Positions 2,954-32,708 are shown, counted from the first letter of the stretch. The stretch is DNA of 64,000 bases from Urbifossiella limnaea (GCF_007747215.1 NZ_CP036273.1:2216322-2280321); one strand, 5' to 3'. Program-made: numbers and translations. Notes: generated by a model from the letters alone, not told the origin.

Positions 2954-2979
2954 CGTTGAGCTAGACCCGGGAATGCCCG

Positions 2980-3071
2980 GCCGAACCCCACGCTGCAGCA
3001 GACCGCGGCCTCATCAGCGAGTAGCATGGGTCCAGCGCTCACGGCCGCGGCTGCTGAGCTTTTTGTTCGGC
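2980..3071 (+). repeat. attC-like site C (cassette junction)
   Basis: 92-bp imperfect palindrome. Outer boxes are GCCGAAC (2980-2986) and GTTCGGC (3065-3071). Spacers are CCCAC (2987-2991) and TTTTT (3060-3064). GCT (2992-2994) pairs with AGC (3057-3059), G2995 bulges, CAGCAG (2996-3001) pairs with CTGCTG (3051-3056), A3002 bulges, and CCGCGGCC (3003-3010) pairs with 3043-3050. The spacer sequences differ from sites A and B but keep their length of five. Predicted exchange point is 3065/3066. Confidence 0.72.
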
Positions 3072-3091: not shown

Positions 3092-3451
3092 GTGGGCATC
3101 GTCATCTGCCCGAAGCACGGCCACGGGTTCTTGTACAACTGCCCGCATCTCGTGGCGGCGGTCGTGGCTCACTCGCCCCTGCCCGGAGTGGAGTACCTGG
3201 AGTACGCCCCGAGCGACGACCCGGCGTTCCTGATCGGGTGCTGGTACTGCCCGGCGTGCGTGGCGGCCCACTGCCTCCCGCCATCCGGCAGCGTGCCGTT
3301 CGACTCCGAGAAGTTCCCCGAGGGGGTCTCGCCGCTGTTGCAGCCGATGTGCCCGGAGTGCTTCCGTCAGTGGCGGGCCGCCGGACTCGGGTCGCGCCAA
3401 GACGCCGAACCCGGCGCTGCAGCAGACCGCGGCCTCATAAGCGGTTCGTGA
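3092..3451 (+). CDS. Cysteine-rich putative zinc-binding hypothetical protein (cassette)
   Basis: 119 residues from GTG 3092, which has GGAGG-type sequence at about 3075-3085 and sits 26 bp after the predicted exchange point of site C. Upstream in-frame starts lie in the palindrome. The protein carries several Cys/His pairs (ICPKHGHG, CPH, CWYCPAC, CPEC), consistent with one or two structural zinc sites. It has no signal peptide. The C-terminus (EPGAAADRGLISGS) is translated from attC-like site D. The family is not recognised. Confidence 0.65.
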   Translation: MGIVICPKHGHGFLYNCPHLVAAVVAHSPLPGVEYLEYAPSDDPAFLIGCWYCPACVAAHCLPPSGSVPFDSEKFPEGVSPLLQPMCPECFRQWRAAGLGSRQDAEPGAAADRGLISGS

Positions 3452-3488
3452 GCCGTAACAGCCAAGGGACGCGGCTGCTGAGCTGGAT
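3404..3488 (+). repeat. attC-like site D, right outer box lost
   Basis: The left half is intact: GCCGAAC (3404-3410), spacer CCGGC, GCT, bulge G3419, CAGCAG (3420-3425), bulge A3426, then CCGCG (3427-3431). The right half has CGCGG (3470-3474), CTGCTG (3475-3480), AGC (3481-3483) and a 5-nt spacer (3484-3488). At 3489-3495 the expected GTTCGGC is replaced by CAGCTAT. The site therefore looks recombined or decayed at its right edge and may mark the end of the functional array. Confidence 0.6.
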
Positions 3489-3546
3489 CAGCTATCGGGC
3501 CAGAGACGGCCGAACCGGGTCGTCTGGCTATCGGGAGGGCGTGACG

Positions 3547-3882
3547 GTGGTGCGCCAGATTAGCGAGGCCGATTGGCGAATTCTTCGCCAGTTGGAGCCG
3601 ATCGCCCGAGATCGCTTCTGCGATCGCATCCTGTCCGAAGTCGTCGGCCGTGCGACGGACGCCACAGTAGGTAGTCACGAGCGGTACTTGGCGGTGTACC
3701 GCCTCCTCGAGAAGCGGGATCGGGCGTTGTCCGATGCGTTCGACGGCCTACGGCGGTCCACTGCCTTCCTGCAACTGGCGCGCATGCGGTCGCTGGGACT
3801 GATCACCGAGGAGGAGTTCGCGAGATTCAGCCCCGAGACGAGGCAGGTGGTGGCCGTGTTTTCCGGCGACTCACAGGCATGA
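3547..3882 (+). CDS. Small helical hypothetical protein (last array gene)
   Basis: About 111 residues. The start is one of GTG 3541, 3547 or 3550; I prefer 3547 because GGGAGG (3533-3538) then sits 8 bp upstream. The protein is predicted mostly alpha-helical (VVRQISEADWRILRQLEP..., then EKRDRALSDAFDGLRRS), is soluble, and has no recognisable domain. It follows the damaged attC-like site D in the same orientation and is followed by a remnant of the repeat at 3926-3937, so it is probably a former cassette gene. Confidence 0.6.
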   Translation: MVRQISEADWRILRQLEPIARDRFCDRILSEVVGRATDATVGSHERYLAVYRLLEKRDRALSDAFDGLRRSTAFLQLARMRSLGLITEEEFARFSPETRQVVAVFSGDSQA

Positions 3883-4076
3883 TATTCCCGAGTCGGAGGG
3901 GTGCCGCACCGTTCCCGATGGCGAGGCCGAACCCGGCTGACCCGGAACCTTTCCAGGCGAAGCAGCCCCGACCACAGAGTTGCGCAGCTTTGGCACGGCG
4001 GTCGGATCATACCTTCGGCGCTGCCGGCCGGCGCCCGTCGGGAGGGTGATTGATCGACGGTGGAGCGGTCGCCGAA

Positions 4077-4145
4077 CCCCTGGCGCCGGCGCCACCCTAC
4101 CCCTGGCGCCGGTGCCACCCCCGCCCAGTCTTATTCTCTGTCTCT
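4077..4145 (+). repeat. GC-rich 70-bp repeat, left copy
   Basis: Two near-identical units of CCCCTGGCGCCGGYGCCACC lie in tandem (4077 and 4100), followed by CGCCCAGTCTT and a pyrimidine-rich tail. The same arrangement of CCCCTGGCGCC, a degenerate second unit and CGCCCAGTCTT recurs at 13309-13377, at the end of the polymerase gene. The two copies are in the same orientation about 9.2 kb apart. Confidence 0.5.
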
Positions 4146-4406
4146 TACTCCATATCCCCGGCGTGGCATCCGCTCGACAGGTGACAGCACCGCCGCCCCC
4201 TGACCTCCGCGCCCGCGTTCTCGCCGCATCGGTCGCGCCGACGCCGCGCCGCGGTCGCGAGCCGACCTCGTTGCCGTATCCGGCGAGTTGGACGATTCTG
4301 AACGATTCTGAACTGGTTGCGCGATTCGGGATGACCCGCGGCGCGCAGTCGTCCCGGCGCCCGGACGGAAGCGGGGAACGCGCCGCGGTGTTGCACACGT
4401 ACCGGG

Positions 4407-4412
4407 TATGAT
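4407..4412 (+). promoter_or_regulatory. Candidate -10 element, possible leaderless start
   Basis: TATGAT ends 5 bp before ATG 4418, and no Shine-Dalgarno sequence precedes that start. If this is a real -10 box, transcription would begin at or next to the ATG, giving a leaderless mRNA for the following operon. No convincing -35 box is seen at the usual spacing. Similar GGGTAT/GGGTAC motifs lie upstream of other island genes (6381 and 13818). Confidence 0.3.
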
Positions 4413-4417
4413 TCAGC

Positions 4418-4717
4418 ATGGGCTGGGAACGACGTGGGAGCCGGCAGCACTTTTACACCGCCCGCCGGGTCGGCGGGCGGGTCGTCAAGGAGTACGGCCC
4501 GGCCGCCGTCGCTGCCGTCGCCGCCCAGCTGGAGGCCGAGCAGCGAGCGGAACGCGCCGCCGGGCGGGCCGCGGTCGAGCGTGCCCGCGCCGAGCTCGAC
4601 GCCTTGGACGCGGCCGTCGCCCCCTTGGCGGAGGCCGCAGACATAGCCCTCCGCGCGGCGATGCTCGCGGCCGGCTACCACAATCACAAGGGCCAGTGGA
4701 GGAAACGCCGTGGCTGA
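4418..4717 (+). CDS. Conserved small coiled-coil protein of mobile gene pair
   Basis: 99 residues. A short basic N-terminus (MGWERRGSRQHFYTARRVGG) is followed by an Ala/Glu-rich helix likely to form a coiled coil (residues 27-80) and a basic end (HNHKGQWRKRRG). From memory, short proteins with this MGWERRG start and QWRKRR end occur in Planctomycetes, Chloroflexi and Acidobacteria next to a protein ending in a QVNVA-type motif, exactly as here. Function is unknown. It overlaps the next gene by 8 bp (GTGGCTGA), so the two are translationally coupled. Confidence 0.7.
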   Translation: MGWERRGSRQHFYTARRVGGRVVKEYGPAAVAAVAAQLEAEQRAERAAGRAAVERARAELDALDAAVAPLAEAADIALRAAMLAAGYHNHKGQWRKRRG

Positions 4718-5243
4718 TGCAGCTCTGGCGACGAAACAAGCCACCACCGAGGCGAGTAAGCTCCTGGCGCTCATCAAGCGGGCGGAAGGCGGGGACGCGA
4801 CCGCTCTCCCTGCCTTGCGGGAGTCGCTGGCCCTCCCGGGCATCGCGGACGTGCTCGGCGGCGATGTCGCCCGAAAGGCCGCCGACCGGTTCCTCGATGC
4901 CTTCTGCGGGAAGCACCTCGCCACCCGGGAGGCGACGGCCACGAAGATGGCCCAACTCCGGACCGAACTGGCCGGAGCGAACTCCACCGCCGTCGAGCGG
5001 CTGCTGGCCGACCGGGCGGTCCTGTGCTGGTTCCACGTCCACAAGCTCGAGATCAGCTACGCCGGGAAGGAGTCGATGTCGCTCGCGCTGGCCGACCACT
5101 ACCAGAAGTGCATCGACCGCGCCCACCGCCGCTACCTGTCGGCCCTGAAGGCGCTGGCTGAGGTCCGCAAGCTGAACGTGACGGTGCAGCTCAACATCGC
5201 CCGGAAGCAGGTCAACGTCGCAGGTGCGGCCGCCGGGGTGTGA
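4710..5243 (+). CDS. Conserved helical protein with C-terminal QVNVA motif
   Basis: 177 residues from GTG 4710, overlapping the previous stop. Mostly helical (leucine- and arginine-rich, residues 10-155), ending in LNIARKQVNVAGAAAGV. The same kind of ending (MNVAQQQVNVAT) closes the gene at 5587-6312, so two proteins of one operon share a C-terminal tag. Such proteins are widespread companions of the MGWERRG protein, but I know of no assigned role. It overlaps the next gene by GTGA (5240-5243). Confidence 0.7.
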   Translation: MADAALATKQATTEASKLLALIKRAEGGDATALPALRESLALPGIADVLGGDVARKAADRFLDAFCGKHLATREATATKMAQLRTELAGANSTAVERLLADRAVLCWFHVHKLEISYAGKESMSLALADHYQKCIDRAHRRYLSALKALAEVRKLNVTVQLNIARKQVNVAGAAAGV

Positions 5244-5590
5244 CACGCTTTGTGGTCCCAAACCTTCGTCTACCCCGAATGGGCATTGTCGTGAGCAAGC
5301 GCATAAACAAAACCCAGGAACCGTTACCCAAGACGCTGCCGGGCGTGGTCTGCGCCCAGCGGGTGCGTTGCGGGAAACCGCGGTGCCGCTGCGCTCACGG
5401 GCAGCGCCACCTCGCCTTTTATCGCTTCTGGCGCGAGGGCGGCCGGCTACGAAAGCGATACGTCCGACGCGCCGACCTGGCGTCGGTGGGGGCCGCGTGC
5501 GAGGCCCGTCTGCGGGAGCGCCAGGCACTGGCCGAAGGATGGCAACAGTGGCGGAAACTGGTGGCCGGCGTGCGGGAGGTGTCGAGATGA
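5240..5590 (+). CDS. DUF6788-like Cys-motif protein
   Basis: 116 residues. GTG 5240 overlaps the preceding stop (GTGA); ATG 5279 is an alternative start. The core, with VRCGKPRCRCAHGQRH and then FYRFWREGGRLRKRYVRR, matches the pattern I associate with DUF6788: a CGxxxCxC cluster with a basic beta-rich segment, often seen near transposable elements. The Cys cluster could bind zinc and nucleic acid, but that is inference. It overlaps the next gene by ATGA (5587-5590), making this a four-gene chain. Confidence 0.65.
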   Translation: MTRFVVPNLRLPRMGIVVSKRINKTQEPLPKTLPGVVCAQRVRCGKPRCRCAHGQRHLAFYRFWREGGRLRKRYVRRADLASVGAACEARLRERQALAEGWQQWRKLVAGVREVSR

Positions 5591-6312
5591 GCGAGATCGC
5601 AACCACACCTGCGGCACCCAGCGAGGCTGGCGTCATCGCCGGGGAGCTGGCCCGGTCGTTCGGCGAGATGGTCCGGCTCTACGAGAAGCACTTCTCCCTG
5701 TCGCGCGAGGACGCCATTCGACGTGCCGCCGAATCGCCGGAGGGCGATGTCGAGCGAGTACTGAACGCGCCGCCCGATCAGGTCAGCTGGTTCGACCTGC
5801 ACGGTATCGCCCGGACCGACCCTGACCGCGCGACGGCCCGGTGGGACGAGATCAAGCGAGCCGCGCTGGACGAACTCCGGACCGGCCACCGGGCCGCCCA
5901 GGCCGTCGAGACGGCCAACGACGGCGCCTGGCAGCGGGCACAGTTCCTGGCGCTGCGGGAGGAACTGTCGGCCGAGTGGCAGCCCCGTAACGGCGTCGAG
6001 CGCCAACTCCTCGACACCATGGCGCAGGCGCAGGAGGGTTACCTTTCGTGGCTGCGGGTGTTGACGATCCGCACCAACCTGGAGAGCTGTACCAACGACC
6101 GGCGCCACAAGGAGGAGGGGAGGTGGGGTCCGCCGCGGCAGAGCGACGCCGACGCCCTCGACCAGGCCGCCGCGATGATGGACCGGTACAACCGCATCTT
6201 CCTGCGGACGCTCCGCGCCCTGTGCGACATGCGACGGCACACCGGCCCCGTGATCGTGAAGAAAGGCGGGCAGATGAACGTGGCGCAGCAGCAGGTGAAC
6301 GTGGCCACCTGA
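5587..6312 (+). CDS. Hypothetical helical protein with C-terminal QVNVA motif
   Basis: 241 residues from ATG 5587 (ATGA overlap with the gene before). Residues 20-75 are acidic and helical; the middle contains ERQLLDTMAQAQEGYLSWLRVL and MDRYNRIFLRTLRALCDMRR, resembling the helical repeats in the shorter 4710-5243 protein. It ends in GGQMNVAQQQVNVAT, the same tag. The two may be paralogues or share a binding partner through the tag. Last gene of the overlapping operon. Function unknown. Confidence 0.7.
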   Translation: MSEIATTPAAPSEAGVIAGELARSFGEMVRLYEKHFSLSREDAIRRAAESPEGDVERVLNAPPDQVSWFDLHGIARTDPDRATARWDEIKRAALDELRTGHRAAQAVETANDGAWQRAQFLALREELSAEWQPRNGVERQLLDTMAQAQEGYLSWLRVLTIRTNLESCTNDRRHKEEGRWGPPRQSDADALDQAAAMMDRYNRIFLRTLRALCDMRRHTGPVIVKKGGQMNVAQQQVNVAT

Positions 6313-6380
6313 AGTGCCTCGACGGCGCCCGCCGCCGCTCTGCGGCATGCAGCCGACTCGTCCGGGCAACTCCGGCGGGT

Positions 6381-6386
6381 ACGATT
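6381..6386 (+). promoter_or_regulatory. Candidate -10 element upstream of HTH gene
   Basis: TACGAT within GGCGGGTACGAT lies 49 bp before ATG 6435, the same GGGTA context as the motifs at 4407 and 13818. No clear -35 box is visible. Weak evidence, based mainly on the shared context. Confidence 0.2.
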
Positions 6387-6434
6387 GGGTGAACGCCCGG
6401 TTACGCCGGGCTACTCGCCCACCGGAGACGACGG

Positions 6435-6998
6435 ATGAAGCCCACCGCCCCTCGGGCCGAACTGAGCCTGGCCCAGCAGTCCGCCGTCGATCTGCTCGCC
6501 GCCGGGAAGAACGACACCGAGACGGCCGCCGCGGTCGGGCTGAACCGCGTCACCGTCACCCGGTGGCGGCTGTACTCGCCGGAGTTCCGGGCGGCGCTGG
6601 CGGACCGCCGGGCCGCCGTCTGGGGCGCGTCGGCCGACCGGCTCCGGGCGCTCCTCCCGCAGGCCATCGACGCCCTGGCCGACGCGCTCCAGGACGCCGA
6701 CACCGCCGACCGGGTGGACGTGGCGCTGGCCGTGCTGAAGCTGGCCGGGCCGATCCCGCTGGTGCCGGCCGGGCCGACCGACCCGGACGAGATCGTGCGG
6801 GCCGTGGTCGAGGCCGAGCGGGAGCGGCTCCGCGACCGCGACGAAGCCCTCGACGAGTACGACGGCCTGCCCGACCACGACGCCCACACGAAGGCCGTCC
6901 GCAAGCGCCTCGCCCTGCTCGCCAGCCCCCCGGACCCGCCGGCCGCCGTCCCGGCACTCCCCTGCGGTCGAGCCGACGACGGTAACGACCGACCCTGA
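6435..6998 (+). CDS. Helix-turn-helix protein, terminase-small-subunit-like
   Basis: 187 residues. Residues 10-45 form a helix-turn-helix (LSLAQQSAVDLLAAGKNDTE, then AAAVGLNRVTVTRWR) like those in phage terminase small subunits and transposase-linked HTH proteins. A helical region with PQAIDALADAL-type repeats and a charged tail follow. No large terminase or packaging gene is nearby, so it is more likely a stand-alone DNA-binding protein of the island than a packaging factor. Confidence 0.7.
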   Translation: MKPTAPRAELSLAQQSAVDLLAAGKNDTETAAAVGLNRVTVTRWRLYSPEFRAALADRRAAVWGASADRLRALLPQAIDALADALQDADTADRVDVALAVLKLAGPIPLVPAGPTDPDEIVRAVVEAERERLRDRDEALDEYDGLPDHDAHTKAVRKRLALLASPPDPPAAVPALPCGRADDGNDRP

Positions 6999-7126
6999 GC
7001 TCAAACACGTCCCGCGGGTCGCTCAACACTCCTCAATGCTGTTCATTTGCTCCCTACCGACCTCGACGGCCTCTGACCGCCGGCGCTACCGTGGACGCGG
7101 TATTTTTCCGCTCACGGGGCACCGGC

Positions 7127-7912
7127 ATGGGGACGACGCAGATTCCGACCCTCCCGAGAACGCGGGACTGGGTCCGTGTGGTGAGGTTGATTCAGGCCGG
7201 GGCCGACGCGGCCCAGGTCGCGCGGGCCGTCATCCGGGCCGCCGCCGACGCGCTGGCCGCCGCGACCCGGGACGAGGGGGTGGCCGAGGCCGCCTGGCTC
7301 CTCGCCCAACTCCCGCCCGCCGCCCGGGAGGACGACTTCGCGGCCGCCCTGCGGGACTGCGGCATGCGCGTCCCGGACGCGCCCGGACTGATGGACGTAG
7401 TTGTCGCCGTCTCCGACGCGATGGACGACCGGTTCCCGAACAACCGCGGCCGGACCGACGTGACCGAGATCGCCCAGACGGCCGCCGCCGAGGCCGTCGC
7501 CGCGACCGTGGGCGTGAAGACCGCGGGATTCTTCGGGGCGGCCCCGCCGGAAGTCCAGAAGGCGGTCGCCGGGCTCGCCACGGTCAAGAAGTTCGGCGCG
7601 TTCGTCCGCACGTTCTTCGCCCGGCTCGTGTTCAAGTGCCTCGACTCGTTCGTCAGCCGGGCCACGCCGGCCGAGGTCGGGGCTGGCCGGCGGTTCACCA
7701 CGCTGGCCCAGGAGCGAGAGTTCACCCGGGCGCTGGAAACGCACTGCTGGGACTGCGCGCACGTCGTCGAGCACTTCGCCGGCAAGTGGCGGTCGAGGGC
7801 CAAGTGGGTCCGCGGGGAAGTGGACCGGCCGAGCGCCGCCGGGTTCGCCCAGCGGGCGATGGAGAAGGTCGTCACCCTGCTCCGGGAAGGGGGGACGGTC
7901 GATGGCCACTGA
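7127..7912 (+). CDS. Hypothetical partner of QueC-like protein
   Basis: 261 residues. I chose ATG 7127 (MGTTQIPTL); an in-frame GTG at 7091 would add 12 residues. Residues 15-85 are Ala-rich helices, residues 85-150 are mixed with a short segment AEAVAATVGVKTAGFFG, and the C-terminal third is helical and basic (FVRTFFARLVFKCLDSFVSR...). The family is not recognised and it does not resemble QatB as I remember it. The gene overlaps the QueC-like gene by 11 bp (7902-7912), so the two are coupled and probably act together. Confidence 0.7.
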   Translation: MGTTQIPTLPRTRDWVRVVRLIQAGADAAQVARAVIRAAADALAAATRDEGVAEAAWLLAQLPPAAREDDFAAALRDCGMRVPDAPGLMDVVVAVSDAMDDRFPNNRGRTDVTEIAQTAAAEAVAATVGVKTAGFFGAAPPEVQKAVAGLATVKKFGAFVRTFFARLVFKCLDSFVSRATPAEVGAGRRFTTLAQEREFTRALETHCWDCAHVVEHFAGKWRSRAKWVRGEVDRPSAAGFAQRAMEKVVTLLREGGTVDGH

Positions 7913-9932
7913 GCGTGCGATCCGGTGCGGGCAGGCCCGCGGGCAATTCACCTTTACCGACCCCTGCCCCCTCCGCCTGCGGATGTGGGGGGAGGGGTGG
8001 AACGTCCGGTACGTCCCCGACGACATCCGGTCCCGGCTGTACCGCGACCCGGCGCCGGAGGTCCTCGACCTGATCGACGTGGCGACCTACGTCTACGCGG
8101 CCGACCGGATGGTCGGCCGGGGGAGCCCGGCCGACGTGCGGTTCGGGCCGAACTGGCGCCGCCGGTTGTGCTTCCGGGTCCCGGTCCGCAAACCCGACCT
8201 CTGGGGGCAGCCGGCCGTGCGGCAGGACCTGGAGGCGGTTCTGTCGTTCATGTCCGAGGACACCTACGAGTTCGAGTTCGAGCACTACTCCGACCCGCCG
8301 GCAGCGCAGCGGTACATGGTGTTCACCGGTCCGGGGGCCGACCGCGAGCCGGATGAGGTGGTGCTATTCTCCGGCGGGCTGGACTCCGTCGCCGGGGCGG
8401 TGCGGGAGGTGGTGGCGGAACGGAAGTCGGTCGCCCTCGTCGGGCACCGGCCGTCCGGGGCGGTCGCCCCCCGGCAGGCGGAACTGATCCGGCTGCTCTC
8501 CGCCCGGGCCGCTCATCGCCCGCTCCTGCTGCCGGTGCGAGTGAACATCCGCCGCGGGCTCGGGCGGGAATCGACCCAGCGGTCCCGGACGTTCCTATAC
8601 GCTTCCCTCGGCGCGGCGTTCGCCGCGGCGCTCGGCCGGGACCGGCTGCGGTTCTACGAGAACGGCATCACCAGCCACAACTTTCCGCTCGCCGGGTCGG
8701 TGGTCGGGGCGCGGGCCAGCCGGAGCACGCACCCGCGGGTCATCGCCGGGCTCACCCGGTTCTTCACCCGGCTGATCGGGCGGTCGTTCACCGTCGAGAA
8801 TCCGTTCCAGACGTTCACGAAGACGGGCGTCGTCCGGGAGATCCTGGCGGCCGGGTGCGGGGAGACGATCCGCCACACGGTGAGCTGCTCGTTCCCGCGC
8901 CGGCAGCGGGCGGGGAAGCCGCACTGCGGGGTCTGCTCGCAGTGCGTGGACCGCCGGTTCGCGGTCCTCGCGGCCGGGGCGGAGGCGTTCGACCCCGAGG
9001 ACGGCTACCGGGTGCCGCTGGTGACCGGTGAGCGGGCCGGGGCCGCGCCGCGGACGATGTTGTCGGTGTACGTCCAGACGGCCACCCGGGTGGAGACCGA
9101 GACCCCGGTCGGGTTCTTCGGCCGGTACGGTGAGGCGGCCCGGTCGCTGCGGTACTTGGGCGCCAAGCCGGACGCGGCCGCGGTCGGGGTGCTCGAGCTG
9201 TACCGCGACCACGCCCGCGAGGTGACCCGGGTCGTGGACGCCGAAACCGCCCGCCACGCGGCCGCGCTCCGGCGCGGCGAGCTGCCGCCGAGTTGCTTGG
9301 TCCGGTTGGTCTGCGATGCGACCCAGGCGGGGAGCGATCGGGTTGCACCGGCCCCAGAACCCCCGGCCGGGGAGAACATGTTCCGCCGGTCGGGCCGCGC
9401 GTGGGAGGCTCGGTTTGCGGGCGGCCGCCGGTTCGTCGTACTCCGGTCCGTCGGGGCGACCTACCTGCACCACCTCCTGTCGCGGCCGGACGTGCCGATC
9501 CCGGCCGCCGAGCTCGTCTGCCTGGAGTCCGGAGAGGCCGGCCGGATCGGTTTGGGGGACGCCGGCGAGGTCCTCGACGACGAGGCCCGGCGGGCCTACC
9601 GGGACTGTCACCGCGAGCGGTACGAGGAGCTGGCCGGCGAGCGGGACGAGGCCCGGCGCAACAACGATTCCGGCCGCCTGGAGAAGGCCCAGCACGAGTT
9701 GGAGGCGCTCGCCGGGGAGCTGGTCACGGCCGGTGCGCTCGGCGGCCGAGTCCGGCGGGCGTGCGACGACCGTGATCGCCTCCGCAAGGCCGTCGGCAAC
9801 GCCATCCGCCGCGTAGTGACCGAGATCGGCGACGACGACAAGGCCTTCGCCACGCACCTTTCCCCGCCCCGCCTCACCTGCGGGGCATCCCCCTGCTACC
9901 GCCCCGGGCAGCCCATCACCTGGGAACTCTGA
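7902..9932 (+). CDS. QueC-like PP-loop enzyme fused to an extra C-terminal domain
   Basis: 676 residues, about three times the length of QueC. Residues about 145-400 form the QueC-like N-type ATP pyrophosphatase domain, with the PP-loop SGGLDS at 157-162 and a four-Cys zinc site (C329, C342, C345, C348; motif HCGVCSQC). The N-terminal 140 residues are not assigned. From about residue 490 a second domain begins (FAGGRRFVVLRSVGATYLHH ... LLSRP). It continues into a coiled segment and ends SPCYRPG. This pattern resembles the C-terminal domain of large actinobacterial regulatory ATPases. QueC homologues outside queuosine operons occur in anti-phage systems (Qat, some CBASS). No queD/queE/queF is adjacent, so a defence role is inferred. 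Confidence 0.85.
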   Translation: MATERAIRCGQARGQFTFTDPCPLRLRMWGEGWNVRYVPDDIRSRLYRDPAPEVLDLIDVATYVYAADRMVGRGSPADVRFGPNWRRRLCFRVPVRKPDLWGQPAVRQDLEAVLSFMSEDTYEFEFEHYSDPPAAQRYMVFTGPGADREPDEVVLFSGGLDSVAGAVREVVAERKSVALVGHRPSGAVAPRQAELIRLLSARAAHRPLLLPVRVNIRRGLGRESTQRSRTFLYASLGAAFAAALGRDRLRFYENGITSHNFPLAGSVVGARASRSTHPRVIAGLTRFFTRLIGRSFTVENPFQTFTKTGVVREILAAGCGETIRHTVSCSFPRRQRAGKPHCGVCSQCVDRRFAVLAAGAEAFDPEDGYRVPLVTGERAGAAPRTMLSVYVQTATRVETETPVGFFGRYGEAARSLRYLGAKPDAAAVGVLELYRDHAREVTRVVDAETARHAAALRRGELPPSCLVRLVCDATQAGSDRVAPAPEPPAGENMFRRSGRAWEARFAGGRRFVVLRSVGATYLHHLLSRPDVPIPAAELVCLESGEAGRIGLGDAGEVLDDEARRAYRDCHRERYEELAGERDEARRNNDSGRLEKAQHELEALAGELVTAGALGGRVRRACDDRDRLRKAVGNAIRRVVTEIGDDDKAFATHLSPPRLTCGASPCYRPGQPITWEL

Positions 9933-9948
9933 ACGGTCGGCAGATCAC

Positions 9949-9971
9949 CGCGCTACGCCCGAAGTAGCGCG
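9949..9971 (+). terminator. Hairpin after QueC-like gene
   Basis: CGCGCTAC (9949-9956) pairs with GTAGCGCG (9964-9971) around a 7-nt loop, 17 bp after the stop of the QueC-like gene. There is no U tract, so it is a candidate stem-loop terminator or 3' stabiliser rather than a textbook intrinsic terminator. Confidence 0.4.
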
Positions 9972-10095
9972 CGGAACGCACGGTGTAGCGCCGTGAGGGT
10001 GTTCGGGGGCCGAGGCGCCCCCGGACGGCCCCGGGGCGCCCGCCGCTCGGCCCCCGGCCACCCACCCGAGCGGTCCCGGTCAGGACACGTGACGG

Positions 10096-10377
10096 ATGAC
10101 CCCTTCCTCCCCTATCGCGGGGACGCCCGCCCCCGGTTCGCCCCGTCGCCGGCGGACGGCCCGGCTGTTAGTCCGCCGAAAGCAGGCCGCCCGGCTCTGC
10201 GCCGTCGGCGTAGCGACATGGGACCGGTGGAACGCCGCCGGACTGAACCCCCGTCCGACAAAAATCGCCGGCGCGGTCCTCTGGGGCGCCGCCGAGCTCG
10301 CCGCGTGGTGCCGGCGCGGCTGCCCGCCCCGTGACCAGTGGACCCCGCTCTGGGAGTCGTTGCTCACCCGGAAGTAG
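10096..10377 (+). CDS. AlpA/excisionase-like DNA-binding protein
   Basis: 93 residues. After a basic, Pro-rich N-terminus, residues 27-75 match the MerR-type winged helix of AlpA/Xis proteins: RKQAARLCAVGVATWDRWNA, then a beta wing (TKIAGAVLWGAAELAAW) and CPPRDQW. Such proteins direct excision or activate an integrase gene in integrated elements. The position between cargo genes and the polymerase/integrase block fits a directionality factor for this island. Confidence 0.75.
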   Translation: MTPSSPIAGTPAPGSPRRRRTARLLVRRKQAARLCAVGVATWDRWNAAGLNPRPTKIAGAVLWGAAELAAWCRRGCPPRDQWTPLWESLLTRK

Positions 10378-10473
10378 CCTCCGCAGTCTGCCGTTGCGTC
10401 CGCCCCCGGCGCGGGCTGCGGCGGGCCCTCAAGACCCAGACCGAACCGAGTTCCCAACCTTACGAGGTGTCAC

Positions 10474-11106
10474 GTGATCCGCGACCCGTTGACCCCCTCG
10501 ACCGCGAACGGCACGACCGCCGCCCCGTTCGACGCCACCCCCGGCCCGGACCCGTTCGACGTGGGCCGGCTCCGCCTGCCGGCGGACGACGACGCCGACC
10601 TGGGCGTGCGGGAGCTGCTCGTCACCGTCCCCTACCGCAAGCCGTCGAAGGAGACGTTCTTCCGGGTCCACCCGGACCCCGCCTACCGGTGCGTCGGCGG
10701 GCTGATCGAGCTGAAGGACGACGACGCCGAATCCTACTGGGTGGACCGGAGCCTCTGGCCCCACCTGGCCGACGAGCCGACGTTCGGCCGGCGGCACGTC
10801 TTCACCTGCGCCAGCCGGCAGGGGCTAGTGTTCCTGTGGGGCTGTCGGCTCCCCGGGCCGGACGGCAAGTCGCCCGACTGGGTGAGCATCCCGCTCGAGG
10901 CCGCGAAGGCCGCGGAATCGAAGTGGGTGAAGCTGTTCTGGGATCAGGCGCAGCGGCGGCACCGGATCAAGGTGAGCGCGCACCTCACCGACGAGCCGGC
11001 GTGGCCGGAGCTGCCGCTCCCGGAACTCCTCCGGCTGGCGTTCCGCGACCGGGTGGTGACGACCCTCGACCACCCGATCCTCCAGCGCCTCCGCGGGGAG
11101 CGCTGA
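10474..11106 (+). CDS. Conserved mobile-element protein
   Basis: 210 residues from GTG 10474, with GAGGTG 6 bp upstream. It contains LLVTVPYRKPSKETFFRVHP, then GGLIELKDDDAE and LFWDQAQRRHRIK. I recognise this pattern from proteins next to polymerase and integrase genes of integrated elements in other phyla, where it has no firm function. It ends 2 bp before the polymerase start, so the two are probably co-transcribed and may act together in element replication. Confidence 0.7.
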   Translation: MIRDPLTPSTANGTTAAPFDATPGPDPFDVGRLRLPADDDADLGVRELLVTVPYRKPSKETFFRVHPDPAYRCVGGLIELKDDDAESYWVDRSLWPHLADEPTFGRRHVFTCASRQGLVFLWGCRLPGPDGKSPDWVSIPLEAAKAAESKWVKLFWDQAQRRHRIKVSAHLTDEPAWPELPLPELLRLAFRDRVVTTLDHPILQRLRGER

Positions 11107-11108
11107 CC

Positions 11109-13418
11109 GTGGAGGTGCTCGCCTGTTACCGGGAGGTGTGGTGCGCGGACTTCGAGTTCCGCGCCCCCGCCGGCCACCGCCCGGAGCCGCTGTGCGTCTG
11201 CGCCCGGGAGCTCCGGACCGGGCGGGCGGTCCGCCACTGGCTCACCGACGACCCGCCCGCCGTCTCGCCGTACCCGACCGACCCGGGGGCGCTGTTCGTG
11301 GCGTACTACGCCAGCGCCGAGCTCGGGTGTCACCTCGCCCTGGGGTGGCCGCTCCCGGCCCGGGTGCTCGACCTGTTCGCGGAGTTCCGGAACCTGACGA
11401 ACGGCCGCCCGCCGACCCACGGGAGCGGGCTGCTCGGGGCGCTGGCGTTCTTCGGGCTCGACGCGCTCGACGGGGCGGAGAAGGACGGGATGCGGGAACT
11501 CGCCATGCGACCGGGCGGGCACACCGCCACCGAGCGGGCCGCGCTCCTCGACTACTGCGCGTCCGACGCCGACGCACTCGCCCGGCTGCTCCCGCGGATG
11601 GCCCGGGGGCTCGACCTCCCCCGGGCGCTGCTCCGCGGCCGCTACATGGCCGCCGCCGCCCGGATGGAGTGGGCCGGGGTGCCGATCGACGCCGCCGCCC
11701 TCGCCGGGCTGCGGGGGCGGTGGGACGCGATCAAGGCCCGGCTGGTGCGGGCGGTGGACCGCGACTACGGGGTCTACGTCCCCGCCGGCCGCCGGCCGCT
11801 CGACCCCGCGACCCGGTTCGGCGGCGCGGTCCTCGCCGCTGCCAGGGAGTGGGAGCTCGACCCCACCGAACTGGCGGAGGCCGCCGAGTACGTCCACCGG
11901 GTCGAGAAGGCCGCGGCCGCCCCCCGGCTCGAGGCGGTCCGCGCCGCCCGGCAATCCACCGGGCTCACCGAGGCGCGGGTGGGGAAGCTGATTGACGGGG
12001 GCAAAGACTACCTGGACGTTCCCGGGTTCGACGTGTCGGCGCGGGAACTGGCCGGGATGTACCCCGACCTGGGAATCGGGGGCGGGTACGACCCGGACGG
12101 GGTGGACGACGACTACGGGCCGAAGCTCTGGGAGGTGCTGGCCGAACCCGACCCGGTGACGCCGCCGCGGCACGACCCCGCGACACTCCGCCGGGCCGCC
12201 GGGCTGGTCGGGCCGGCGGGCGTGCCGACCACCTACGCCGGGCCGCTGACGTTCTCAGCCGCCCGTTGGGGGGAGTACCTCACCCGCGCCGGCATCCCGT
12301 GGCCCCGGCTGCCGAGCGGCGCCCTCGCCCTGGACGACGACACGTTCCGGGAGATGGCGAAGGCCTACCCGGACCGGCTGGGGCCGATGCGGGAGCTGCG
12401 GCACACGCTCGGGATGATGCGGCTCCACGAACTGGCGGTCGGGCCGGACGGGCGGAACCGGTGCCTCCTGTCCGCGTTCCGGTCGCGGACCGGGCGGAAC
12501 CAGCCGTCGAACTCCGCGTTCGTGTTCGGCCCGTCGGTGTGGCTCCGGGCGCTGATCCGGCCCGCGCCGGGTCGGGCGGTCGCGTACGTGGACTGGTCGC
12601 AGCAGGAGCTGGCCATCGCCGCCGCGCTGTCGCGTGACCCGGGGATGATGGAGGCCTATACGTCGGGGGACTTCTACCTGACGTTCGCGAAGATGGCCGG
12701 CGCGGTCCCGGCGATGGCTACCAAGCGCACCCACGGGCGGGAGCGCGACCGGTTCAAGGTGGTCGCGCTCGGGGTGCTGTACGGGCTCGGGGCGGACGGG
12801 CTGGCGAGGAAGCTCGGGGAGCCCCCGCTCCGGGGGCGGGAGCTCCTCGACATGCACCGCCGCGCCTTCCGCCGGTTCTGGGACTGGTCGGACACAGTCG
12901 AGGAGCGGGCGATCCTCACCGGCCGGCTGCGGACCGCGTTCGGGTGGTCGATCCGGGTCGGTGCGGACGCGAACCCGCGGAGCCTGCGGAACTGGCCGAT
13001 GCAGGCGAGCGGGGCGGAAATGATGCGGCTGGCCGCCTGCCTCGCCACCGAGCGCGGCGTCGGTGTGTGCTGCCCGGTCCACGACGCATTTCTGGTCGAG
13101 GCCGCCGCCGACGGGATCGAGGCGGAGACGGACCGGATGCGGACCGCGATGCGGGAGGCGTCGGAGCTGGTGCTGCCCGGATTCCCGCTCGGGACCGACG
13201 CGAAGATCGTCCGCCACCCGGATCGGTTCACCGATCCGCGGGGCGAGCGCATGTGGCGGACCGTTTCCGGCATCCTGGCCGAGCTCGAGGCCGCGGACGA
13301 CTTCGCCACCCCTGGCGCCGACGCCACCCCACCCCCCGCGCCGGCGCTACACCCGCCCAGTCTTGTTTCTGTGTCTGGTGGTATTCACCCCTGGGAGGGC
13401 GCGGCCGATGGGTGGTGA
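11109..13418 (+). CDS. Family A DNA polymerase of the integrated element
   Basis: 769 residues from GTG 11109. The N-terminal domain is a DEDD-type 3'-5' exonuclease: CADFEFRAP near residue 14, a second Asp in ARVLDLFAEF, and YCASDADAL with the Tyr/Asp pair. The polymerase domain has motif A VDWSQQELAIAA at about 493, motif B RDRFKVVALGVLYG at about 547 and motif C CPVHDAFLVEAA at about 655 with the catalytic Asp. All key residues are present, so it should be active. It is shorter than housekeeping PolA and lacks a 5'-nuclease domain. Context (Xis-like, wHTH, integrase) indicates it replicates the mobile element. Its end overlaps the next gene by 11 bp. Confidence 0.9.
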   Translation: MEVLACYREVWCADFEFRAPAGHRPEPLCVCARELRTGRAVRHWLTDDPPAVSPYPTDPGALFVAYYASAELGCHLALGWPLPARVLDLFAEFRNLTNGRPPTHGSGLLGALAFFGLDALDGAEKDGMRELAMRPGGHTATERAALLDYCASDADALARLLPRMARGLDLPRALLRGRYMAAAARMEWAGVPIDAAALAGLRGRWDAIKARLVRAVDRDYGVYVPAGRRPLDPATRFGGAVLAAAREWELDPTELAEAAEYVHRVEKAAAAPRLEAVRAARQSTGLTEARVGKLIDGGKDYLDVPGFDVSARELAGMYPDLGIGGGYDPDGVDDDYGPKLWEVLAEPDPVTPPRHDPATLRRAAGLVGPAGVPTTYAGPLTFSAARWGEYLTRAGIPWPRLPSGALALDDDTFREMAKAYPDRLGPMRELRHTLGMMRLHELAVGPDGRNRCLLSAFRSRTGRNQPSNSAFVFGPSVWLRALIRPAPGRAVAYVDWSQQELAIAAALSRDPGMMEAYTSGDFYLTFAKMAGAVPAMATKRTHGRERDRFKVVALGVLYGLGADGLARKLGEPPLRGRELLDMHRRAFRRFWDWSDTVEERAILTGRLRTAFGWSIRVGADANPRSLRNWPMQASGAEMMRLAACLATERGVGVCCPVHDAFLVEAAADGIEAETDRMRTAMREASELVLPGFPLGTDAKIVRHPDRFTDPRGERMWRTVSGILAELEAADDFATPGADATPPPAPALHPPSLVSVSGGIHPWEGAADGW
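13309..13377 (+). repeat. GC-rich 70-bp repeat, right copy
   Basis: CCCCTGGCGCCGACGCCACC, then a degenerate second unit and CGCCCAGTCTT, parallel to the copy at 4077-4145. Here it encodes the low-complexity Pro/Ala tail of the DNA polymerase, so the polymerase C-terminus may have been extended into repeat sequence. Confidence 0.5.
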
Positions 13419-13776
13419 CCCGTTCGATCCGGCCCGCATCCACCCGCCGGGGGAACCCGACCCGACGCCGACGCGCCCGCCCCGGCACCGCCCGGGGGAG
13501 CCGTTCCTCCGCGGCCCGATCCCATGGGCGTGGGTGACGACGGCCGCCGCGCTGCCGGGGAAGGCGCTGGCGGTCGGGCTGGTGCTCTGGCGGGAGGCCG
13601 GGTGCGTGAACCGGCGGACGGTGCGGGTGACGCTCGCCCGACTGGCCGGCCCGCGGCTGTCGGCGGACGCCGCCCGCCGCGGGGTGCGCGCCCTCGAGCG
13701 GGCCGGGCTGGTGTCCGTCGAACTCCGCCCCGGGTGCGGGCTGGTCGTGACGTTGAACGACGCGCCCGCGGGGTGA
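13408..13776 (+). CDS. Winged-helix protein linked to element polymerase
   Basis: 122 residues from ATG 13408, overlapping the polymerase end by 11 bp. A Pro-rich N-terminus is followed by FLRGPIPWAWVTTAAALPGK, VGLVLWREAGC and a winged-helix core (RRGVRALERAGLVSVELRPG). This family is a regular neighbour of element polymerases and integrases in many bacteria. It probably binds DNA as a replication initiator or regulator; no direct evidence separates these options. Confidence 0.75.
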   Translation: MGGDPFDPARIHPPGEPDPTPTRPPRHRPGEPFLRGPIPWAWVTTAAALPGKALAVGLVLWREAGCVNRRTVRVTLARLAGPRLSADAARRGVRALERAGLVSVELRPGCGLVVTLNDAPAG

Positions 13777-13817
13777 CCGCGCAACTACCGAGCTGGCGCG
13801 CCGCCGTGGCCGCCGGG

Positions 13818-13823
13818 TATACT
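13818..13823 (+). promoter_or_regulatory. Candidate -10 element for the integrase
   Basis: TATACT in the context CCGGGTATACT lies 82 bp upstream of ATG 13905, after the stop of the winged-helix gene. It is a good -10 match in otherwise very GC-rich DNA, but no -35 box is seen at 16-18 bp. Confidence 0.35.
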
Positions 13824-13904
13824 CCTCTTGCCTTTAGCCGTGCCGGCGGGATGCGACCTGAGAACCGCACCCGCCGGCCGGCCGTTCTCAGAAAGGCCCG
13901 TCCG

Positions 13905-15641
13905 ATGGCAACCCTGTTCAAGCCCACCCGTCCTTACCCGCTCCCGCCCGGGGCCGAGATCGTCCGCAAGGGCGGCCGGCCGCACGCCCGGATACCCGAG
14001 AGGGGGAGGGCGGCGCTGTACCCGCTGAGCGCGGACGGCGCCGCCTACCTGAAGCCGGCCGCGAAGTGGGCCGCCGACGTGCGGTTCGCGGACGGCACCC
14101 GCAAGCGCGTCCGGTTCTCCCCCAACCGGGACGCCGCCGCGCTGATGCTGGCGGACCTGTTGAAGCGGATCGAGAACGAGAAGGCCGGGGTGATCGACCG
14201 GACCGGACCGCACCGGAAGCGCCCGCTGACCGCGCACGTCTCCGACTGGCTCGACAGTCTGCGGGCGAACGGCCGCGACGAAACCTATCTCGGGTTGAAG
14301 GCGGGTCGGATGCGCGCCGTTGTCGAGGGGTGTGGGTGGGTGTTCCCCGGAGACATGTCCGCCGACCGGCTCGAAACGTACCTCGCCGGGCTCCGGTCCG
14401 CCCGCCCCGACCTTCCGCCGATCCCGGCCGGGGTCGAGACGTTCACCGGCGCGGAGGTGGGGCGACTGCTCGGGGGCGTGACCCGGCAAACCGTCTCCAT
14501 CCTGGTCCGCCGGCACGGGCTCACCGGGACCGGGAACGGGAAGGCCCGCCGGTTCCCCCGGGCGACCGTCGAGGAACTCCGCCGGCTGCGCGACCACGGC
14601 GCTTCCGTCCAGACTTCGAACCACTACCTGCAAGCAGCCCACCAGTTCGCCCGGTGGCTGGCGGACAACGGGCGGACCGACGGGAACCCGTTCCGCCGGC
14701 TGAAGGCGATGAACGCCCGCCTCGACCAGCGCCGCCGGCGGGGCGAGTTCTCCCCGGCGGAGGTGGTCGCGATCCTCGCCGCCGCCGGGTCGAGCGCCGC
14801 GACCGTCAGCGGGCTGGCCGGCGCCGACCGGGTGATGCTGTACCGGACCGCGCTCGGGACCGGGTTCCGCGCCGCCGAACTCGCTGCCGTGACCCCGGAC
14901 ATGTTCGACCTCGACGCGACGCCGCCGGCGCTGATCCTCCCGCCGGAGTTCTCCAAGAACCGGAAGGTGGCGGTTCAACCCCTCGCCGCGTCCCTGGCCG
15001 CCGACCTGCGCCACTACCTCCCTGGCCGCCCGGGGAAAGAACCCGTCTGGCCCGGGGCGTGGCCTGTGAAGGCGGCGGACATGCTCCGGGTGGACCTGAC
15101 CGCCGCCGGGGTGCCGTGCGACGTGGACGGGCCGGAAGGTGTCGAAACGCGGGACTTTCATGCGCTCCGGAACTGCTACATCTCGGACGTTCTCCGGTCC
15201 GGTGCCGACCTGAAGCAAGCCATGACGCTGGCGCGGCACTCCGACCCCCGGCTGACTACCGCCCGCTACGGCCGGACCCGCTTGCACGATCTCGGCGCGG
15301 TGGTGGATCGGCTCCCCGGTGGGACCGCCACCGACCGCGAACCGGCTGTCCTCCGGCACACTGGGACGGACTCCGGGAGCAGCACGGGAGCAGCAACGGG
15401 AGCAGCAGCCATCGGAAGCGGGCGGGGCTTTCTGAGGGTGATCGAAGAAACCAACACCGGGGGAGGGGAGGGGGGTGGCACGAAAAAACCCCTGCGGCAA
15501 CAGGGGTTAGAGAGCAATCGGGGGCGATTGAGTGTTCCTGAGAAAGAGGCCTCGCCCGGATTCGAACCGGGGAATGACGGTTTTGCAAACCGTTGCCTTA
15601 CCACTTGGCTACGAGGCCGTCCGGTCCCTGACGGCGAGTGA
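13905..15641 (+). CDS. Tyrosine recombinase (integrase) running through tRNA-Cys
   Basis: 578 residues from ATG 13905. An N-terminal SAM-like DNA-binding region, with an inserted HTH-like segment (EVGRLLGGVTRQTVSILVRR), is followed by the catalytic domain: R322 (GTGFRAAEL), H419 and R422 (HALRN), H445 (ARHSD) and the nucleophile Y455 (ARYGR). The catalytic set is complete, so it should be active. After Tyr a 123-residue tail remains; residues 548-571 are the antisense translation of the tRNA-Cys gene. The tail is low-complexity before that and is probably dispensable. The position next to the tRNA 3' end fits integration of the island at this tRNA. Confidence 0.9.
   Translation: MATLFKPTRPYPLPPGAEIVRKGGRPHARIPERGRAALYPLSADGAAYLKPAAKWAADVRFADGTRKRVRFSPNRDAAALMLADLLKRIENEKAGVIDRTGPHRKRPLTAHVSDWLDSLRANGRDETYLGLKAGRMRAVVEGCGWVFPGDMSADRLETYLAGLRSARPDLPPIPAGVETFTGAEVGRLLGGVTRQTVSILVRRHGLTGTGNGKARRFPRATVEELRRLRDHGASVQTSNHYLQAAHQFARWLADNGRTDGNPFRRLKAMNARLDQRRRRGEFSPAEVVAILAAAGSSAATVSGLAGADRVMLYRTALGTGFRAAELAAVTPDMFDLDATPPALILPPEFSKNRKVAVQPLAASLAADLRHYLPGRPGKEPVWPGAWPVKAADMLRVDLTAAGVPCDVDGPEGVETRDFHALRNCYISDVLRSGADLKQAMTLARHSDPRLTTARYGRTRLHDLGAVVDRLPGGTATDREPAVLRHTGTDSGSSTGAATGAAAIGSGRGFLRVIEETNTGGGEGGGTKKPLRQQGLESNRGRLSVPEKEASPGFEPGNDGFANRCLTTWLRGRPVPDGE
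15483..15508 (-). terminator. Intrinsic terminator of tRNA-Cys
   Basis: On the minus strand an 8-bp stem (AACCCCTG / CAGGGGTT, 6-nt loop) is followed by six T residues (15488-15483), 39 bp after the tRNA 3' end. This is a textbook Rho-independent terminator. It lies inside the integrase reading frame. Confidence 0.8.
15547..15618 (-). tRNA. tRNA-Cys (GCA anticodon)
   Basis: 72 nt. Acceptor arms GGCCTCG and CGAGGCC pair perfectly, with discriminator T. The D arm is GCC/GGC, the anticodon stem is ACGGT/ACCGT with loop TTGCAAA (anticodon GCA), and the T arm is CCCGG-TTCGAAT-CCGGG. CCA is not encoded. The 3' end faces the integrase gene, the usual arrangement when an element has integrated in a tRNA gene. 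I found no second copy of the tRNA 3' end to the left within the window. Confidence 0.95.
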
Positions 15642-30462: not shown

Positions 30463-30954
30463 TCACGGCACCCATTCATAGGTCGCCGACTGGCCGATGT
30501 TCTCCTCCACCTCGACCCGCAGAACCTCCGGCACGAAGCCGTGACGGTCGCGGAGTGATTCGAGCAACCGCTCGGCCAGGTGTCGGGCGATCAGCTCGGC
30601 CGTCGTGTTCTCGATCGGCAGCAGCTTGCAGTCGCCGCGCGGGAACAGCCAGCGGCGGTCCTTGTACGTCACGTCCACGGTCGGGCCGGTGTCCACGACC
30701 GCGATCACCGGGTTGCGGGTGGCCAGCAGCATGTGGTGGTCCAGGTCGTCGGTAATCTCCTTCATCCGCGCCTTGAGCGCGACGAAGTCGAAGACGTAGA
30801 AGTCGGCGGCGAGCGGCCCCTCGACCTCGACCGCGGCCCGGTAGTTGTGGCCGTGCAGCCGCTCGCAGCGGTGCCCCTCGTAGCTGATGAAGTGGCCGCA
30901 GCAGAAGACCAGGTGGTCCTTGGTGACGCGGACCTTGTAGCGCTCGGTGGGCAT
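30463..30954 (-). CDS. 6-pyruvoyl-tetrahydropterin synthase-like protein
   Basis: 163 residues. PTPS/QueD fold with zinc-binding His at H21 (GHF) and H34/H36 (LHGHNY), and DDLDHHMLL later. In this context (3 bp behind the CitG-like gene, in an operon with Mch) it most likely serves pterin chemistry for tetrahydromethanopterin rather than queuosine synthesis. The catalytic Cys between the zinc ligands is present as C30. Confidence 0.85.
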   Translation of the reverse strand: MPTERYKVRVTKDHLVFCCGHFISYEGHRCERLHGHNYRAAVEVEGPLAADFYVFDFVALKARMKEITDDLDHHMLLATRNPVIAVVDTGPTVDVTYKDRRWLFPRGDCKLLPIENTTAELIARHLAERLLESLRDRHGFVPEVLRVEVEENIGQSATYEWVP

Positions 30955-30957
30955 GTG

Positions 30958-31854
30958 TCAGAGCCAGTCGGTCGCCGCCCAGCGGAACGGGGCGGTCGGG
31001 GCTACCTTACGCTCCCGCAGCGCCACGAACAGGCACGCCGTGATCAGGTCCGCCACCGCCCCCGGGTTCAGCCGGTTCCCGTCCGACCGCAGGTGCCGGT
31101 CCAACTCGACGCCGGCCCGCCGGCCGTCGGCCGAAGAAATCCCGCCCAGGCGTAGCACGTCGGCCGCGCGCCGCTGCACGTCGGCGGCGGCCGCCGCGCC
31201 CGCCTTCCGCGCGATCAGGGTGTCCGGGTACTCGGCCAACCAGTGCAACTGCGCGTCGATCACCGCCGCCTCCACGCACCCGAACCGGCGGAGCGCGTCG
31301 AGAAACGTCGGCACGCCGAAGTCGAACACGTCCGCGAACCCGTTGGCGTACTGGCGGGCCACCAGGTCGCGGTCGGCCGCCAGCGCCATCGCTTCGAGCA
31401 GCGTGATCGTCGGCTCGGCTCGCACGTCGGCTTCGGGGGCGTCGCCGAGGCCGCCGGGGTTCGCCACGCGGATCGCCTCGTACACGTCGCGCGCCGCGGC
31501 CACGCCGCACCGCTCCGTGTTCAGGACGTGGCGCGAGAAGCCCTCGCGGTCCATCGGCGCACCGGGGTGTGCGAGGGGCGTCAGCAGGAGCAGGATGCCG
31601 AGGTTCGTGTTCGACTCGACGACGGCGCGTGTCCGCCGCACGCAGGCCAGGACCGTGCCGCCGACGTCCTCGTAGTCGCCACGGCTGCCGAAGTTCGGCG
31701 TGACGACCGCGGCGCTCAGCAGGAACGACACCGCGTCCGCGTCCCGGAACGCGGCCCCGGGGTGGACGTTGCCGACCTTCCGGGCCATCACCTCCCACAC
31801 GCACGCCGTGGGGATCATCCACTGCGTCGGGTCGTCGAACCGCGGGGCCGTCAC
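30958..31854 (-). CDS. CitG-like (triphosphoribosyl-dephospho-CoA synthase family) protein
   Basis: 298 residues from GTG 31854, which overlaps the RimK-like stop (GTGA) and has GGAGT upstream. The fold signature includes WEVMARKVGNVHPGAAF and NTNLGILLLLTPLAHP. CitG relatives are regular members of H4MPT gene clusters in methylotrophs and planctomycetes, where they are thought to act in cofactor assembly; no citrate lyase gene is nearby. Confidence 0.85.
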   Translation of the reverse strand: MTAPRFDDPTQWMIPTACVWEVMARKVGNVHPGAAFRDADAVSFLLSAAVVTPNFGSRGDYEDVGGTVLACVRRTRAVVESNTNLGILLLLTPLAHPGAPMDREGFSRHVLNTERCGVAAARDVYEAIRVANPGGLGDAPEADVRAEPTITLLEAMALAADRDLVARQYANGFADVFDFGVPTFLDALRRFGCVEAAVIDAQLHWLAEYPDTLIARKAGAAAAADVQRRAADVLRLGGISSADGRRAGVELDRHLRSDGNRLNPGAVADLITACLFVALRERKVAPTAPFRWAATDWL

Positions 31855-32708
31855 CGGTACTCCTCCGTCAGAAAGCGGACCACGTCGGCCGCCACGTCGC
31901 GGCCCGTGACGGCCGCCAACGCCCGCCACCCGGGCACGGCGTTCACCTCGATCACGCTCAGGTCGCCGCCCGGCCCCGGGAGCAGGTCCACGCCCGCGAG
32001 CGGGCAGCCGACGGCCGCCGCCGCCCGCACCGCGAGTGACACCGCTCCGTCACCCAGTTCGACCTGCTCGGCCGTGCCGCCCTGGGCGACGTTGGTCCGC
32101 CAGTCGCCGCGGGCCGTGCGCCGCATCCCGGCGAGCACCTTGCCGCCGACCACGAACGCCCGCAAGTCCCAGCCCGGGTGGCGGACGAAGCCCTGCTGGT
32201 AGATCACCTGCCCGGTGCGGTCGAGGGCGTGAAACGTCCGCCACGCCGTCTCGCGGTCCGTCAGCCGCACCATGCCGCGCCCCTCGGACCCGAACAGCGG
32301 CTTCACCACCACGTCGCCGCCGAGCCGGTCGAACCCGTCCAGTGCGGCATCGGCCGTTTGAGAGACGTGGGTCGGCGGCGTCGGCAGGCCGGCGGCGGCG
32401 AGGCGGGTGCTGGTGAGGTACTTGTCCACGCACGTCTCGACGGCCCGCGGCGGGTTGAGGACGCGCACCCCGGCGGCGACCGCGGCGTGGAGCACGTCCA
32501 TGCGGAAGACGACCTGTTCGAGCGACCCGGCCGGCATGGTGCGGACGAGGGCCGCGTCGAACCCGGCGAGCGGCCCAGGGTGGGTGCCGACGGCCGCGGC
32601 GACGGTGCGGAAGTCCACGGGCTCGGCCGCGTGGCCGAGCTGGCGCGCGGCGCGGACGAGGTCGAGGACGTGCCACCCGCCGCCGCCGGAGAGGACTGCG
32701 ATTCGCAT
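31851..32708 (-). CDS. RimK-like ATP-grasp ligase
   Basis: 285 residues. ATP-grasp core: CVDKYLTSTRLAAAGLPTP, VVVKPLFGSEGRGMVRL and the C-terminal VDLLPGPGG...VIEVNAVPGW metal site. RimK-like ligases add glutamate or similar amino acids; in H4MPT clusters a relative (MptN in archaea) ligates glutamate to the cofactor. That is the likely role here, by context. Confidence 0.85.
   Translation of the reverse strand: MRIAVLSGGGGWHVLDLVRAARQLGHAAEPVDFRTVAAAVGTHPGPLAGFDAALVRTMPAGSLEQVVFRMDVLHAAVAAGVRVLNPPRAVETCVDKYLTSTRLAAAGLPTPPTHVSQTADAALDGFDRLGGDVVVKPLFGSEGRGMVRLTDRETAWRTFHALDRTGQVIYQQGFVRHPGWDLRAFVVGGKVLAGMRRTARGDWRTNVAQGGTAEQVELGDGAVSLAVRAAAAVGCPLAGVDLLPGPGGDLSVIEVNAVPGWRALAAVTGRDVAADVVRFLTEEYR

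Follow-up and report, generated by a model that had tools for sequence, protein, structure and literature searches.

A pair of adjoining genes lies on the plus strand of a 64,000-nucleotide stretch of the Urbifossiella limnaea genome (GCF_007747215.1 NZ_CP036273.1:2216322-2280321), the whole of which we call the window. The first gene (7127..7912, unannotated) encodes 261 amino acids with the N-terminus MGTTQIPTLPRTRDW, in which Gly2 is the presumed modification site; the second (7902-9932) encodes 676 amino acids from an ATG start. Their coordinates overlap at 7902..7912, and short overlaps of a similar kind are also present in relatives (for instance at our loci L066 and L033); translational coupling is likely. 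By fold and motifs the pair is QatB-QatC, but it is not the qatABCD system, because neither QatA nor QatD is found nearby and the QatC protein misses the NCBI cut-off. Systems of the Qat anti-phage kind are known; what is new is a separate QatB-QatC lineage in which QatC carries a fused C-terminal domain.

The core of the larger protein (residues 1-470; 7902..9311) comprises the QatC N-terminal extension, a QueC-fold ATP-pyrophosphatase domain, and a helical extension, the part that touches QatB in P. aeruginosa QatC (PMC13279940). Residues 50-361 match the PADLOC QatC model with an E value of 3.8e-49, and solved QatC structures are matched by sequence at 2.9e-24 (PDB 9vlk) and 5.5e-23. The NCBIfam QatC model NF041925 is matched at 8.3e-54 with 183 bits, below its curated cut-off of 280 bits. 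Three relatives score 185-218 bits against the same cut-off, and by NCBI's own limit the family is therefore a sister lineage. The Pfam QueC match is weak (1.2e-5). To judge by these matches, residues 50-361 are QatC rather than QueC. The original prediction, which had proposed a QueC-type active site related to Qat, thus holds for the QueC fold, which stands outside queuosine operons, and for the relation to Qat, which appears in PADLOC, PDB, and NCBIfam alike; the identity of the enzyme, by matches and motifs, is QatC.

The predicted catalytic elements are found in the reading frame as described. The PP-loop SGGLDS, the ATP site, occupies residues 157-162 (8370..8387), and C329, C342, C345, and C348 form the zinc site with the motif CGxCxxCxxRR (8886..8945). 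The hexapeptide SRSTHP (residues 273-278; 8718..8735) stands at the position of QatC T278/T280, whose functional role in the canonical enzyme has been reported (PMC13279940). Conservation was counted over 81 distinct family members and 8 canonical QatC proteins encoded elsewhere in this phylum. PP-loop, RxRxF, ENG, THP, and TK are essentially invariant in the family, as they are in the canonical proteins; SGGLDS itself is kept in 80-81 of 81 members and 8 of 8 canonical QatC, and all four zinc cysteines are present in 81 of 81. The wider QatC motif set D(x)4R..WxR, RxRxxxF/Y, ExG, HP, TK, and zinc C..CGxCxxRR (listed in PMC13329287) is found in 78-81 of 81. Catalytic residues, whose loss the original prediction had named as evidence against itself, are thus kept across the 81 members. 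In the window copy the zinc cysteines are spaced C(x)12C instead of C(x)19C. Both it and its closest relative (L031) have Ser-Ser for the T278/T280 pair, where most relatives have TRTTHP; the second Ser (residue 275) is limited to these 2 of 81 proteins, with Thr in the other 79. The exchange of Thr-Thr for Ser-Ser is a conservative change. Canonical QueC (PF06508, preQ0 synthesis) has the fold, PP-loop, and zinc site in common with this protein; its substrate motifs are YxQxHxxE, VPxRN, and YPDC, whereas the family has the QatC set and no preQ0 operon.

The start of the partner gene at 7127 is fixed by its relatives, all of which begin MG(H/T). The longer frame that begins with the GTG at 7091, the first one in frame, was rejected, since the relatives fix the start as the ATG at 7127, which opens MGTT. 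Across 42 aligned relatives, Met1-Gly2 is invariant, Pro10 is near-invariant, and the tail follows the consensus MGHxRLGxLPRTRxW, a motif paralleled in canonical QatB by MGTS together with Pro16/Trp18. Seven of 8 canonical QatB, from a plasmid and related genomes, open with MGTS or MGTT, the latter as in the window. By sequence, searches of Pfam, PADLOC, NCBIfam, PHROGs, and PDB sequences gave nothing usable for the partner and did not find QatB. Its predicted structure (predicted local distance difference test score, pLDDT, 85) gave no significant row in Foldseek against the PDB; QatB was found only by VIA-align, which placed 208 of the 215 residues of solved QatB (9y01_A) at Z 14.1 and a root-mean-square deviation of 3.8, the best non-QatB row reaching Z 6.7. 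A profile comparison of phage-type with canonical QatB alignments is weak but supporting (E 1.2e-5, probability 81%). By its modelled fold, then, the gene preceding qatC is QatB, and the original prediction's two-gene unit has its second member. The QatC matches, the invariant Gly2, and the fit of the model to solved QatB together identify the two genes as a QatB-QatC pair. The first helix of the model begins at residue 13, leaving a tail of about 12 residues; canonical QatB tails are disordered and 30-90 residues long (PMC13279940).

Substitution rates were compared between the window pair and its nearest relative, L031: the ratio of nonsynonymous to synonymous rates (dN/dS) is 0.16 for QatB and 0.15 for QatC residues 1-470. 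The whole C-terminal domain stands at 0.43, its last part (long helix and wing) at 0.17, and the fastest-evolving part is the bin over the coiled coil, residues 556-620, at 0.71. As read from these coding sequences, the pair is kept by selection and the QatC core is under purifying selection.

The C-terminal domain (residues 490-676; 9369..9929) is detected by no Pfam model in the window protein. Its AlphaFold2 model (mean pLDDT 87) is built of strands and two helices, a coiled-coil hairpin, a long helix, and a further hairpin at its end; the coiled-coil hairpin is an insertion at about residues 555-612 (model residues 79-136; 9564..9737). The best Foldseek rows are nearly all DNA-binding domains of the OmpR/PhoB family, with weak E values. 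VIA-align, too, lists many rows of the OmpR family, with Z 8.2 over 92 aligned residues for SaeR and Z 8.0 over 95 for PhoB, moderate values that cover 92-95 of about 100 residues with the hairpin inserted. The best model of the domain is a winged helix of the OmpR/PhoB type. The original prediction had assigned it to the C-terminal part of large actinobacterial regulatory ATPases, and the sharing is real: WP_332880967.1, encoded on a Streptomyces plasmid and labelled "AAA family ATPase," bears the domain, with 51.5% identity to the C-terminal domain of the L043 protein. By its model it is a winged helix and not part of an ATPase. Many genomes across the phylum also encode it apart from QatC, on Ser/Thr kinase-TPR proteins, Hel308-like helicases, TPR proteins, and short stand-alone proteins. 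The carriers share this unnamed domain and differ in their N-terminal parts, which are ATPase, kinase-TPR, helicase, TPR, or short. The model thus offers a predicted fold for a domain that regulatory proteins of several kinds carry. Carriers without QatC include L043, L045, L039, L040, L044, L049, and L050, and further L041, L042, L046, L047, L048, and L051, some of them nearly the domain alone; in these, too, Pfam detects no model for it.

Within the QatC family, the domain was detected at 55 of 95 loci, a lower bound because in several tails recorded as lacking it, those of L086 and L091 among them, it can be seen by eye. Sister lineages bear other tails in the same slot, and 4 of these pass the Pfam Trans_reg_C cut-off, which supports the winged-helix model independently. 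The window version shares the predicted fold of Trans_reg_C, the OmpR/PhoB winged helix of Pfam, and differs from it by the inserted hairpin of about 58 residues and by escaping Pfam. On a Leptospira noguchii plasmid (NZ_CP091938.1; L145:5057-7701), that slot of QatC is filled by a nuclease domain of the DpnII/MboI type (PF18742, 1.2e-9). A QatB-like protein starting MGHERLG precedes this nuclease-fused QatC, and no qatA or qatD is annotated near the Leptospira pair.

Our search of IMG/VR viral contigs found 150 relatives, of which 80 were kept. Most of the roughly 80 relatives come from viral contigs, where they stand between a serine integrase or DUF2924 gene and the early replication genes. 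In a gene-order survey of 87 loci, qatB-qatC stood beside a serine integrase in 61 and beside DUF2924 in 55; the genes that often follow the pair encode a sigma factor, a Sak4 annealing protein, a DUF669 single-stranded DNA-binding protein, a helicase, a primase, and a methylase. Among long contigs, the lambda-type portal family was matched in 23 of 29 (20 over the cut-off) and GpA terminase in 13 of 29. These are the informative markers, the HK97-type capsid family appearing in only 2 of 30 contigs. The family is carried mainly by temperate phages. Among cultured phages, no family member was found, and only two unannotated Listeria phage records match the QatC core, at 27-28%; the literature search found no relevant paper tying QatC to phages, prophages, or DUF2924. 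QatB adjoins QatC wherever the region is complete. Context in a preQ0 or queuosine operon, the other finding named in advance as adverse, did not emerge: 30 viral records contain no QueD-family or TGT gene. In a tree, the family (50 rows) stands apart from 13 canonical QatC with support 100/97, and the window-type tail, a winged helix with coiled coil, falls within one group of 28 rows (99/100). DUF2924 adjoins the serine integrase in most IMG/VR loci (L065-L144), and so constant a linkage suggests that it takes part in integration or excision.

Two known systems frame the comparison. With qatABCD (PDB 9y01/9y02, 9vlk, and 9zee), the family has in common the QatC motifs, the QatB fold, the Met-Gly start, and the order qatB-qatC. 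It differs in that QatA and QatD are found near the pair at 0 of 89 family loci, where the same search finds both at 12 of 13 canonical loci; in the short QatB tail and the extra winged helix on QatC; and in its mostly prophage setting, its separate lineage, and, in the window copy, Ser-Ser for Thr-Thr. With Cap9 of type IV CBASS it has in common a QueC-fold enzyme and a partner whose N-terminal glycine is modified (Cap9, from the literature) or presumed so (here). The substrate here has the QatB fold and is not a CD-NTase, and no TGT-family (Cap10-like) gene was found; Cap9, unlike the family described here, lacks extensions and retains the active-site motifs of QueC.

Of the canonical Qat proteins, QatB and QatC suffice for protection against phage lambda, which depends on QatC catalysis and on Gly2 of QatB (PMC13279940). 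With moderate confidence, we read the window pair as a QatB-QatC module of mobile elements that modifies Gly2, acts against phages, and has its DNA partner fused to QatC. Behind this reading stand the identity of both proteins, the intact active site and Gly2, the lack of a nearby QatA or QatD, the location in phages and elements, and the predicted winged helix; the reaction, its substrate, DNA binding, and antiviral function we infer. QatC would bind ATP through its PP-loop and activate 7-carboxy-7-deazaguanine or a related small acid, which it would conjugate to the exposed Gly2 of QatB; such a step has been proposed for canonical Qat and demonstrated for Cap9. Needing neither QatA nor QatD, the pair would then counter competing phages, and the fused winged helix would bring the QatBC complex to DNA in place of these DNA-handling proteins. 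Because the essential features of canonical Qat are kept, N-terminal modification of QatB by QatC would be the best-supported chemistry. Tails of DNA-binding or nuclease type recur, and the operon has lost QatA and QatD; together these observations suggest a transfer of DNA recognition onto QatC.

Several points weigh against this reading. Even for canonical Qat, reconstitution of the QatC reaction is still outstanding (PMC13279940). With about 12 residues before the first helix, against 30-90 in canonical QatB, the tail may fail to reach the active site, and the window lineage has Ser-Ser where the canonical Thr-Thr is functionally essential. The winged helix was assigned by structure, with weak Foldseek E values, and a profile-profile comparison of the domain with the Trans_reg_C tails is poor, covering the first 46 columns at a probability of 15%. 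The search for QatA and QatD covered the surroundings of the pair and not the rest of the host genomes. Finally, the pair sits in the early and integration region of phages, where a regulator would fit as well.

This last point opens the way to a doubtful but substantial alternative, that the pair is a phage regulatory switch: winged-helix QatC would regulate early or lysogeny promoters, with ATP-dependent modification of QatB Gly2 setting the state. The pair is often first in an operon that leads into the sigma factor, Sak4, DUF669, helicase, and primase genes, divergent from or adjoining the integrase; winged helices of the OmpR/PhoB type are typical of transcription regulators; and the family is common on temperate-phage contigs. 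Against this, many lambda-portal prophages hold the pair at the edge of the called provirus, a typical cargo position, with the early genes in the opposite direction. In some loci, a LexA-like or other small gene adjoins the pair, and the Leptospira relative has a nuclease domain where the winged helix stands. The only tested relatives are defensive, and this, together with the cargo-like position in many prophages, is why we rank defence above regulation. Slightly less probable again, in our view, is the full version of the idea, in which temperate phages turned a QatB-QatC modification pair into a lysogeny or early-gene switch, with a DNA-binding QatC and Gly2 controlling transcription.

An improbable alternative is an ordinary Qat-like defence pair in which the winged helix merely autoregulates its own promoter. 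The domain sits after the QatC extensions and is exchanged among lineages while the core is unchanged, and with qatB and qatC overlapping, the complex could bind its own promoter; this account leaves both the nuclease-type domain in the same slot and the consistent loss of QatA and QatD unexplained.

Phages are known to carry 7-deazaguanine pathways, which, with the weak Pfam QueC match and a PHROG 1550 label of "QueC-like queuosine biosynthesis," would favour a genuine enzyme of the QueC type, whose preQ0 would serve tRNA or the anti-restriction modification of phage DNA. We reject such a role as very improbable and largely refuted: QatC motifs stand in place of the QueC signature, QatB is the constant neighbour, QueD-family and TGT genes are absent from the 30 viral records, the host itself encodes a QueC and a QueC-QueD pair, and canonical QatC does not complement a queC deletion (PMC13329287).

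The roles of QatA and QatD in Qat immunity and the QatC reaction are stated open questions in the field (PMC13279940). Read as an antiphage module, a lineage with no QatA or QatD beside the pair, a DNA-binding or nuclease-type tail, and a near-minimal QatB tail is a natural test system, and the function it predicts to be missing is DNA recognition. The lineage further suggests that temperate phages are widespread carriers of a bacterial immune chemistry, which is not confined to bacterial defence islands.

The window pair lies in an element of about 12 kilobases, and the alignment with L031 spans 3504 to 15528. The same element carries a DNA polymerase family A-like gene (11109..13415, plus strand; PF00476 1.8e-22, PHROG 17 8.4e-43) and a tyrosine integrase (13905..15638, plus strand; PHROG 1 9.1e-26, PF00589 below cut-off) whose open frame runs into tRNA-Cys (gca) (15546..15618, minus strand), the element's right edge and presumed attachment site. 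No convincing repeat was found left of the element as a left copy of that site. The element may be a satellite or a reduced prophage, since family searches of its main genes, though not of every open reading frame, found no capsid, portal, or terminase.

The original prediction's remark that no queuosine genes accompany the enzyme holds for the element, which has no QueD-family gene; the host's canonical QueC and its separate QueC-QueD pair lie millions of bases away. With these genes in the host, 7-deazaguanine precursors are probably available. The host QueC (G000:C1 ~6054502-6056640; L160:703-2841, minus strand) contains an intein-like insert of several hundred residues, which in the sequence appears to end directly before the YPDC substrate motif (...GVLAHN followed by SGYPDC). 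Another cluster in the window contains a PTPS/QueD-family gene (30466-30954, minus strand), near which lie genes that by eye look like an ATP-grasp gene and a methenyl-tetrahydromethanopterin cyclohydrolase-like gene (31854-34265); the cluster probably belongs to pterin (C1) metabolism and not to queuosine. An interspersed repeat of about 90-100 bases occurs in the window at 331-432, 951-1043, 2968-3071, and 3400-3488, and the same repeat stands beside the related L031 element at 124-225, 615-719, and 1559-1621.
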